DNA of 64,000 bases from Gammaproteobacteria bacterium. GTDB taxonomy: Bacteria > Pseudomonadota > Gammaproteobacteria > Pseudomonadales > Azotimanducaceae. Below the pieces are notes generated by a model. The model was not told where the DNA came from, searched no databases, and saw only the letters and a list, made by a program, of their open reading frames with translations. Positions within the stretch are counted from its first letter, which is position 1, and each line of letters opens with the position of its first letter. This document shows, piece after piece, positions 11,102 through 16,904 of this stretch. Location of the stretch: the NCBI GenBank assembly GCA_009840545.1, contig VXNM01000011.1, positions 62,001 to 126,000 on the forward strand. Reading direction: 5' to 3'. Position numbers and translations under genes: made by a program.

Positions 11102-11980
11102 CTAAGGGGAATCGCCACCTTTCAGGCTTTGACGACTTTTGAAAGCGCTCCGATTTCTTCGTCGCTGTTCTCCCATAGATCGAAGCTTTTCCCGGTCGCT
11201 CGGGTCGACCTTCATGTATTTTTCGCGCCAGGACTGATCTTCTCCCCACATGTGCGAAGTTTCTGCTGTTGTTTGAGGACGAACAGCGTTTTCGAGCAAT
11301 GTCAGTCCTGATCGAACGACCTCTTCTTGCATTTGACTGTCATATGGTCGTCCGATCGGATTTCCTAGCGGAAAGTTGGTGAAGAGAAATCGAGGTACGG
11401 CGCATTTCTCAACAATATCTCTTGCAGAACCAATGATGATGGTCGGAATGCCGTTTTCTTCGAGTACTCTCGCTGTCAGACTCACGGTCTGATGACATAC
11501 GGGTCACAGAGGCACCAGCAGCAACGCGTCGATCTTATCCTCTTGACAGAGTTGAAGTACCAGCTGAGCGTCGGTTTGAGATGTCTTTCGCTGACTGTAC
11601 TCCGTTGGAAGAAAATACGAACGCCGAGCAATCTCACCGATGAAGCGTTTTGCCACGAGACTCTGGAGCACTTCGAGGGGAAAGAAGCTCCCCCGATCGT
11701 TAAGGTGTGTGGCTTCGCGATCCCAAGCTAAGTCTTCAGCATAGAGTTTGGTCGGTAGCTCTTCGTTTGATCTTGCCTCAACCTTTCTGTGATCAAGCAA
11801 CTTACTAGGATAGGTCGATGCTGTGCTGGCAAGTGCGATTCTCGATTTTGCGAGTGGTTTTCGCAACGTTGTGAAAGGTGCGGCGTCATGGTGCGCCCAC
11901 CGGTAGGGCACATCGAATCCTTGAGCTTCGTAGTAAATCTTCGTTTTCTCGATGTATCTGACTGAATCGAAGGAGGTCAT
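11102..11980 (-). CDS. GrdB/PrdB-like reductase family protein, probable selenoprotein (in-frame TGA)
   Basis: Two open frames separated only by a TGA (11504-11506) lie in the same phase and read as one protein of 292 residues. The junction translates ALLLVPL-[TGA]-PVCHQTVSL, so the TGA is residue 159 and makes a UxxC motif if read as selenocysteine. This matches the glycine/betaine/sarcosine/D-proline reductase selenoprotein B family; sequence after the TGA stays conserved-looking (ARVLEENGIPTIIIGSARDI, then FLFTNFPLGNPIGRPYD). No frameshift is needed. A hairpin just downstream (separate entry) resembles a bacterial SECIS. ATG 11980 is used; a GTG at 11989 is an alternative. Complete Grd or Prd reductases are anaerobic amino-acid enzymes, but stand-alone homologues like this have no established role. 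A plain nonsense mutation is the alternative reading. Confidence 0.78.
11476..11492 (-). promoter_or_regulatory. SECIS-like hairpin downstream of the in-frame TGA
   Basis: On the coding strand the sequence TCAGAC-CGTGA-GTCTGA forms a perfect 6-bp stem with a 5-base loop. The loop occupies bases 18-22 after the TGA and carries GU at positions 19-20. In the E. coli fdhF SECIS the loop GGU sits about 19-21 bases after the UGA, so both distance and loop content agree. A weak lower stem (U-G, G-C, U-G) extends it after a small internal mismatch. SelB would bind such a loop to deliver Sec-tRNA. Confidence 0.65.
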
Positions 11981-12021
11981 TTGGCTCACTCAAGTACGTG
12001 GACTAACGAACGTGCTCTAGG

Positions 12022-12810
12022 TTAAACCCCAGGAGCAAAGTGAAAGTATTTGTTCTCTTCCACATCAGTCGGAGCGGGAACTTCTCGTTTTTCAAGCGTG
12101 ACACGTCCATCTTGAAGCGTCAGCAAAGCAAAGAAACCACCTCTCGTGGTTGCAAATGCCTTGACGGGCGATCCTGGATAGCAGGCAACTGTATTGCCGA
12201 GATCGTAGTCCTGCCAGACATGAACATGACCTAGGGCAAGATAATCGAATCCAGATTCTTTGATTTCGTCCTCAGAGATTGTTGAGGATACGTACTCTGT
12301 GGGTGTGTTCACAACCTGCCCATGTGCAAGACCGATGTTCCACGTCGCGTTCGGTTTAGCTCCTGCTCCTTGTAACGGCTTGTTTTCGGGAGTGTGCTCG
12401 GTCATCGCTCTTCCCCATATGCTGAGGTCCAAGTCAGATAGGTCGATTCGCGTACCCTCGGCATCGAGTAGGAAGTGCACATTCTTACCTAGTCTGTCGG
12501 TTTCAAATCTCTTCCAGACTGAATGGTCATCGTGTACATCGTGGTTCCCGGGAATCACAACGACATGACAATCCAACTTGTTGAACTGATCGCAGACGAA
12601 GTCTATGTCGTGTGCCTTGACGCGAGAATGATCGAACAAGTCTCCAACAACCAAGAAAAGATCACATTGTTCGTCTCGAACAGAATCGACGACGAAGGCA
12701 AAGGCCGCTTCTGCAACATTGCGATAGCCATTGATTGAGTTCGACCGGGCGTTTCCGTCCAAGTGCACATCAGATGTATGTGCAATTCGGATTGGCTTGA
12801 GTGAAGACAA
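12022..12810 (-). CDS. SbcD-like metallophosphoesterase
   Basis: A 262-residue calcineurin-like phosphoesterase. All metal-binding motifs are visible in order: HTSDVHLDG near residue 11, VVGDLFDHS near 54, IPGNHDVHD near 87, then GLAHG and LALGHVHVWQD in the second half. The arrangement matches the SbcD/YkuE-type DNA repair phosphoesterases, but the SbcD C-terminal capping domain is missing or short and no sbcC-like ATPase is adjacent. It starts immediately after the folE stop codon, so the two are probably co-transcribed. The substrate is unknown. Confidence 0.82.
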   Translation of the reverse strand: MSSLKPIRIAHTSDVHLDGNARSNSINGYRNVAEAAFAFVVDSVRDEQCDLFLVVGDLFDHSRVKAHDIDFVCDQFNKLDCHVVVIPGNHDVHDDHSVWKRFETDRLGKNVHFLLDAEGTRIDLSDLDLSIWGRAMTEHTPENKPLQGAGAKPNATWNIGLAHGQVVNTPTEYVSSTISEDEIKESGFDYLALGHVHVWQDYDLGNTVACYPGSPVKAFATTRGGFFALLTLQDGRVTLEKREVPAPTDVEENKYFHFAPGV

Positions 12811-16433: not shown

Positions 16434-16904
16434 CTACAGAATGTCTTGCTTGGATGAAGTGTTCGATTCAACACTTGCCTTCAATTGGAACTCGCGACGC
16501 TTCTTGTCAAGCCAACTCACTGTCTCTTCAAGTCTTATCGGCGACTTGAGCTCGCACTCCCAGAGGACAATGACCTCATATCCAGCATCTTTCAGTTCCT
16601 TCAAGTTCTTTCGGTCTCGTTGCACGTTTCTCTCAAACTTTTCTAGCCAGAACTCGGTATTAGATTTTGGAATAGAGGAGTGTCGGCAGTCCTGGTGGCG
16701 ATGCCAGAAACAGCCGTGGACAAGAATCACAGTCCGGTACTTCGAAAGCACGATGTCTGGAGTGCCTGGTAGGTTCTTGTTGTGAATGCGAAACCTGAAT
16801 CCGTTGGCATGCAAAACCGAACGCACTCGAACTTCAGCTTTCGAATTCGTGCTCCGAATACTCTGCATGATCTTACGCCGGGTTTCGGAAGATACGATGT
16901 CCAT
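16434..16904 (-). CDS. vsr: Very short patch repair endonuclease (Vsr)
   Basis: A 156-residue Vsr-type endonuclease, which nicks next to T:G mismatches made by deamination of 5-methylcytosine. The N-terminal SSETRRKIMQSIRSTNSKAE is diagnostic. The catalytic and zinc region reads LPGTPDIVLSKYR and VHGCFWHRHQDC, followed by WLEKFERNVQRDR and VIVLWECEL, as in the E. coli enzyme. Vsr genes usually sit beside a cytosine-5 methyltransferase (dcm-like). None is adjacent here: the neighbours are an LLM oxidoreductase and PPK2. The last 25 residues are not conserved. Confidence 0.93.
   Translation of the reverse strand: MDIVSSETRRKIMQSIRSTNSKAEVRVRSVLHANGFRFRIHNKNLPGTPDIVLSKYRTVILVHGCFWHRHQDCRHSSIPKSNTEFWLEKFERNVQRDRKNLKELKDAGYEVIVLWECELKSPIRLEETVSWLDKKRREFQLKASVESNTSSKQDIL

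Follow-up and report, generated by a model that had tools for sequence, protein, structure and literature searches.

The window, by which we mean the whole 64,000-nucleotide stretch of DNA analysed here, carries a gene that bears the marks of a selenoprotein gene, and the sequence evidence that its in-frame UGA is read as selenocysteine (Sec) is strong. The features by which bacterial selenoproteins are recognised, namely sel genes in the genome, a 3' SECIS with a G(U) loop, and homologues having cysteine (Cys), were all found. In the best explanation that we can offer, which we consider reasonably probable, the product, encoded by a single gene, is related to PrdB, the D-proline reductase subunit that bears Sec, and acts as a stand-alone selenol/thiol (UxxC) reductase.

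The ORF finder that we used splits the gene into two minus-strand ORFs of the same frame (11504-11989 and 11102-11485), as an initial annotation of this DNA had said gene callers would; ordinary annotation may split it likewise. Only the TGA parts the two, and reading it as U carries the frame on to the TAG, giving a product of 292 residues (Table 1). Thus, the earlier claim of a single in-frame TGA at the UxxC position, with the frame open on both sides, is confirmed on the minus strand. The ATG at 11980 is the start that best fits the aligned homologues, and it makes U residue 159, in agreement with the number first given. TGA terminates 17 of the 40 long ORFs of the window and is an ordinary stop there; hence, we see no sign of a reassigned code. 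A scan of the window for further frames that read through a TGA and have both redox motifs and hairpins yielded no second convincing recoded gene, the other listed frames being judged by eye, and a gathering-level search of the window returned no Rfam match. Elsewhere in the window, a gene for a Vsr mismatch endonuclease (PF03852) lies at 16434-16904 on the minus strand.

Table 1. Positions in the window of the selenoprotein gene, its recoding features and its upstream neighbour
Feature	Position	Strand	Remarks
PrdB-like selenoprotein gene	11102..11980	(-)	292 codons; ATG 11978-11980, stop TAG 11102-11104
In-frame TGA, predicted Sec codon (residue 159)	11504..11506	(-)	motif LVPL-U-PVCHQTV
Partner Cys codon of the UxxC motif (residue 162)	11495..11497	(-)	invariant in alignments A1 and A5
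SECIS-like hairpin UCAGAC-CGUGA-GUCUGA, apical-loop GU	11476..11492	(-)	14-30 nt from the U of UGA
Calcineurin-like phosphoesterase gene, upstream neighbour	12022..12810	(-)	~40 nt before the ATG

The UxxC motif shows no variation in alignment A1 (24 rows) or A5 (67 rows). Of the loci then collected, 23 were aligned with the window gene in A1 and 12 in A2; A5 combines it with 66 of 75 full-length loci. Locus L050 was left out of A1-A3 as too distant, and L038 out of A3 because of unread bases. L050 (motif UPNC) and other matches, whose open frames approach 400 amino acids and hold one TGA each, are more distant relatives of GrdB size.

The SECIS-like hairpin just downstream of the TGA folds modestly better than its shuffles when taken alone (z -1.4). 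Because the window hairpin is not exceptional by itself, the case for a SECIS rests on covariation. In alignment A3 (28 sequences), 97.9% of the 140 cells of the five-pair core are paired, against at most 35% for slid controls of the stem. An A-U pair becomes U-A in 8 of the 28 rows and a G-C pair becomes A-U in 2; RNAalifold finds an extra outer pair, with U-A replaced by C-G in 10 rows. The number of covarying pairs is equalled in 88 of 500 shuffles, and none of the 500 reaches the covariation score, the paired cells or the both-side-changed cells of A3. In several rows, the version of the stem is coupled to the amino acids, TVS going with one version and SVG with the other.

The contrast between Sec and Cys genes points the same way. 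Of 121 Sec genes, 109 have the five pairs with loop GU, whereas none of 11 Cys genes does, counted as distinct loci with one copy per identical stretch and with Cys loci L142, L143, L197 and L198 outside the 11 (Fisher p 4e-10, relatedness among loci uncorrected). Thus, genes that have given up Sec have given up the hairpin too; the GU persists, without the stem, in two of the 11 Cys genes. One Sec gene of the set has a wholly different yet paired stem (CGCGC/GCGCG).

The gene's own genome (G000; 14 contigs, 3.39 Mb, 96.5% complete) is equipped to decode such a codon. A search for selA, selB, selC and selD had been proposed at the outset, and all four are there, each over its family cut-off. 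The tRNA-Sec model RF01852 scores 72.7 bits (cut-off 47) at C3:398849-398938, ten further matches all falling under 47, and ARAGORN calls the same locus tRNA-SeC with anticodon tca. On contig C2, the matches to SelA (522.7 bits; cut-off 267.9) and SelB (388 bits; cut-off 242) lie 11 bases apart, and that to SelD (261.6 bits; cut-off 125) is on C3, about 3.6 kb from the tRNA-Sec. SelD here (G000:C3:402560-403456; loci L021 and L012) is the C-terminal part of an open frame of 726 amino acids whose N-terminal half resembles, by eye, an NADH dehydrogenase-type flavoprotein; fusions of SelD with such flavoproteins are known. The genome also holds two COX1-family matches over cut-off, which make aerobic life likely. 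The host is thus probably an aerobe, as the initial annotation had supposed from the look of it.

The recoded codon is shared by relatives of the host. In a search of 58 genomes, own included, the gene was found in 29 (56 matches), and every match has at least one TGA; a second TGA occurs in two of the 56, one also with a TAA. The position of the TGA was read in 30 of the 56 matches (29 and the own copy), the other 26 resting on the search tool's stop count, and it falls within a U-P-x-C motif in 30 of 30. A SelA match was present in all 29 gene-bearing genomes, in two as fragments below cut-off only, and the gene was found in 0 of 17 genomes without a SelA match (Fisher p 5e-7, relatedness uncorrected). 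Many of the 58 genomes have several paralogues; up to 6 TGA-bearing matches occur in one genome (G036, 8% contamination) and up to 5 in the others.

Beyond these genomes, a scan of named genomes gave at least 563 relatives, the best 80 of which were examined. At the site, 79 of these carry TGA and one carries TGT (L131, a Hyphomicrobiaceae MAG); these loci were chosen by nearness to a Sec query, so 79:1 does not describe the family as a whole. Going by record titles, the best 80 represent six phyla or more: Pseudomonadota (50), Myxococcota (13), Chloroflexota (6), Actinomycetota (4), Thermodesulfobacteriota (2) and Acidobacteriota (1), with 4 unplaced. Two of the loci, L101 and L118, are on MAG contigs titled Bordetella parapertussis and Klebsiella pneumoniae, names that may be wrong. 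A sample of the host phylum gave 14 matches in 12 of 299 genomes, 3 with TGA and 11 with TGC or TGT at the same position. A sample of the host order gave 41 matches in 27 of 390 genomes, 39 with TGA; the two non-TGA matches are a Cys gene (L189) and a fragment ending before the site (L191).

We built a tree of 131 rows, 120 with Sec and 11 with Cys, leaving out eight loci that lack a recognisable motif (L069, L142, L143, L188, L190-L193) as well as near-copies. The Sec/Cys label changes on it at least five times, and four of these changes are forced by well-supported branches. Thus, Sec and Cys replace each other in this family. No residue other than these two was found at the site among the homologues inspected there, which is what the alignment of residue 159 suggested by the initial annotation was to reveal.

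A single in-frame stop resembles a nonsense mutation, and one could ask whether the gene is simply broken, with a chance stop or a sequencing error at this codon. That account has almost nothing left to recommend it when set against the finding that 79 of the best 80 named loci share this TGA, the covariation of the SECIS, the presence of the Sec machinery and the substitution rates. Six congeneric pairs of homologues give a dN of 0.08-0.14 for the part before the TGA and of 0.08-0.13 for the part after it, their dS being saturated or above 1; two more distant pairs that include the window gene have dN of 0.23-0.33, with dS of 1.4 or saturated. These values indicate that purifying selection holds on both sides of the TGA. 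A different residue at the site together with decay elsewhere in the gene had been named as grounds for abandoning the selenoprotein reading; we see no decay in the rest of the gene.

An important question regarding this protein is whether it has a partner. The initial annotation called the gene a stand-alone copy, and the searches bear this out: neither PrdA nor GrdA has a match in the own genome, at its 96.5% completeness, and no conserved partner gene was found. Among the 58 genomes, PrdA has one weak match, below cut-off, and GrdA matches in one genome (G031). The PrdA and GrdA searches matched in 0 of 14 control genomes, so that their reach is shown only by the hits in this relative. In G031, a member of the host family, a GrdA gene with a TGA lies ~1.7 kb from the weak PrdA-like match (L166 and G031:C195:54990-55409). 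Such genes can thus be found in the host lineage, and G031 may encode a true Stickland-type reductase. Separation from prdA is not decisive alone, since prdA is likewise absent from the 10.6 kb shown for the annotated PrdB of Peptoclostridium acidaminophilum.

The neighbourhoods were compared by clustering, on neighbour similarity, 98 loci (80 named, the window and 17 other), which include duplicate contigs such as L123/L162 and L075/L164. The commonest clusters within ~7 kb, those of an acyl-CoA synthetase and of a CoA-transferase III (raw counts of 16 and 13 loci, uncorrected for background), owe a good deal to loci sharing gene order. Of the 57 same-strand adjacent neighbours, 50 were searched against Pfam and NCBIfam, and the commonest was an HpcH/HpaI aldolase (6 of 50, all of one cluster). 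No steady partner family was found among the neighbours of the 98 loci, and we therefore make no functional claim from context, the neighbourhoods pointing only loosely to catabolism.

Even within the host genus, the gene has at least two surroundings. In the first, phosphoesterase and GTP cyclohydrolase genes lie upstream (the window, L052, and L075, which is the same stretch as L164); the phosphoesterase-upstream arrangement is absent from the other clustered loci. In the second, a GlcD-type oxidase gene lies downstream (L163 and L165). In three Cys-bearing relatives (L149, L151 and L152), a CoA-transferase III gene is directly downstream. Eight of the loci with the acyl-CoA synthetase cluster (L065, L068, L069, L072, L103, L113, L123, which equals L162, and L126) also encode, close to the selenoprotein, a conserved protein of ~123 amino acids, whose L113 copy has no Pfam match. 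A 1359-codon frame preceding the homologue of G193 was considered as a fusion and rejected by eye: it has the look of a chance reading frame in GC-rich DNA, and the protein has a normal start.

An AlphaFold2 model of the protein, made from A5, has a pLDDT of 95.5. Foldseek found no match for it at E <= 0.001 in the PDB or among viral proteins, which is no proof of a new fold, and PDB sequence searches gave no credible relative. With no PDB match, the structure offers no clue to the substrate. An Asp/Glu racemase fold was not borne out among the 50 listed of 895 weaker Foldseek matches.

These structural results bear on another account, in which this selenoprotein would have a general role in thiol-disulfide or peroxide redox chemistry, for antioxidant defence or repair, and would not be a substrate-specific reductase. 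Its invariant UxxC and probably aerobic host would suit such a role, and a passage of a 2026 review (PMC13188914) takes most uncharacterised selenoproteins to be probably redox proteins. Nothing points to a thioredoxin fold, the PDB having given no match at E <= 0.001; further, no Pfam redox family is among the matches of the 67 A5 members. The patchy presence of the gene (29 of 58 genomes) and its diverged paralogues would also better suit an accessory catabolic than a core redox role. We thus deem a general redox function unlikely, if by no means far-fetched.

If the protein is instead a stand-alone selenol/thiol reductase, its production and action could be pictured as follows. SelB carrying Sec-tRNA(Sec) would decode the in-frame UGA, recruited by the hairpin just downstream, with SelA, SelD and the tRNA for Sec supplied by the same genome. 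The selenolate of U159 would then, by analogy with PrdB and GrdB, attack a small electrophilic substrate at a carbon adjacent to a carbonyl or carboxylate group, so that an amine, halide or thiol-type group is expelled or the substrate is reduced. C162 of the UPVC motif would resolve the Se adduct as a selenenyl-sulfide, which thioredoxin or a low-molecular thiol could reduce in turn. Substrate specificity may be set by the more variable N-terminal half, an arrangement that would explain several Sec paralogues per genome; these paralogues and the patchy presence of the gene fit an accessory, substrate-specific role.

The known PrdB and GrdB reactions involve a carbonyl partner, whether pyruvoyl or other. 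Reductive chemistry is inferred here by analogy with those enzymes, whose carbonyl partner was not found in this genome. Since no PrdA was found, the protein may activate its substrate alone, its substrate may need no activation, or some partner may provide it. The chemistry of PrdB and GrdB is treated in part of the review PMC13188914, and a GrdB-like cleavage of C-F bonds is proposed in a portion of PMC10838667.

How close, then, is the protein to PrdB and GrdB themselves? The initial annotation placed it in the GrdB/PrdB family. The homology is real, as the match to TIGR04483 (PrdB, NCBIfam) and the alignment attest, but the protein is a relative of PrdB and not PrdB itself. It scores 66 bits against TIGR04483, over window residues 36-231, where the equivalog cut-off is 300; all 67 A5 members match the model at E <= 0.001, the best at 1e-31. 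Of the properties of a PrdB, it has the UxxC in the Sec column, and it has neither a score at the 300-bit cut-off nor a PrdA match in the genome. In the wide sense, the protein does belong to the GrdB/PrdB superfamily, with homology across the Sec-bearing region.

It is less like GrdB. The GrdB-type NCBIfam models score 21-30 bits against it; TIGR01917 reaches 27.9 bits (cut-off 602) over profile positions 281-429 of 431. The protein has no Pfam match at E <= 0.01, and hence none to PF07355, a model that matches 26 of the 67 A5 members at that threshold. A match to PF07355 or TIGR01917 over most of the profile and above cut-off, as expected of a GrdB, is thus wanting. The GrdB models (PF07355, TIGR01917/8) are ~430 positions long, and it is their C-terminal third that aligns with ~145 window residues around Sec (E 3e-7 to 1e-4).

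We also compared the protein with two annotated PrdB proteins, from Terrisporobacter glycolicus, where prdA and prdC lie beside the gene, and from P. acidaminophilum. The TGA of each of these genes aligns with that of the window gene, and the proteins share with ours a similar stretch after the UxxC, P.G...G.P.....Q. This common column, the TIGR04483 homology of 67 of 67 members and the filing of marine UxxC sequences as PrdB in portions of ocean surveys (below) would accord with a genuine PrdB subunit at work in D-proline reduction, as the survey label implies. That reading is nonetheless very improbable. The score is far under 300 bits, and identity with PrdB is 24% over the alignment and 28% over residues 34-235 (Terrisporobacter). 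The UGTCHR of PrdB is UPVCHQ in the window protein, and its SHGGYDN is also replaced; ~30 N-terminal and 45 C-terminal residues that are partly conserved in the family have no counterpart in the two PrdB proteins, which lack its N-terminal YxxRTRxYYxAxG and C-terminal W....W stretch. PrdA has no match in the own genome and is represented among the 58 genomes by the one weak, sub-cut-off match, and the several paralogues in many of the genomes speak against a genuine PrdB. Given the missing PrdA match and the distance from the PrdB cut-off, we regard the protein as a relative of PrdB, and probably not a D-proline reductase subunit. Four loci (L046-L049), with MGGIYS where PrdB has MGGGGN or MGGGGD, look intermediate.

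The plasmid-encoded homologues of Roseomonas haemaphysalidis and Haematobacter massiliensis are closer, with 36-39% identity over most of their length. They have Cys at the Sec position and no reductase partner among the listed neighbours. RefSeq labels both a "glycine/sarcosine/betaine reductase selenoprotein B family protein", in records that give no function.

Proteins of this kind have probably been seen before. In the portion of it that bears on this family, the 2005 survey of the Sargasso Sea (PMC1088965) lists a "proline reductase PrdB" with UxxC as the third most abundant known selenoprotein family, with 42 sequences. The corresponding part of the 2008 GOS survey (PMC2398784) counts 235 Sec and 110 Cys sequences of PrdB, and an excerpt of a later survey (PMC9402790) has proline reductase as 6.4% of marine selenoprotein genes. 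The 2026 review, in its relevant passage, places D-proline reductase under TIGR04483 (PMC13188914). As far as these portions go, the find itself is probably not new, marine UxxC "PrdB" selenoproteins having been reported in 2005 and 2008. Among the open-licence papers listed by our literature searches, we recognised none that gives stand-alone PrdB-like proteins of aerobes a function.

What we suggest is a different view of the group. Its customary PrdB name is probably wrong. There is, in our estimation, about an even chance that these stand-alone selenoenzymes form a large clade of their own, found in several phyla and in many genomes as several paralogues, which has been filed for twenty years as "proline reductase PrdB", and that its members, lacking the pyruvoyl partner, are different enzymes: pyruvoyl-independent selenol reductases with a fold for which we found no match among solved structures. 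The matter has weight, since the marine surveys, in the parts cited, rank "PrdB" among the commonest selenoproteins while taking its function from the clostridial name. The group is here set apart from D-proline reductase, its members with Sec and with Cys form a clean set, and its SECIS disappears together with Sec; this makes its function directly testable. Judged by the survey descriptions available in those parts, the "PrdB" of the Sargasso and GOS data (PMC1088965, PMC2398784), with its UxxC, its occurrence in marine bacteria, its excess of Sec over Cys forms and a function assigned by name, is probably the same group as the gene described herein.
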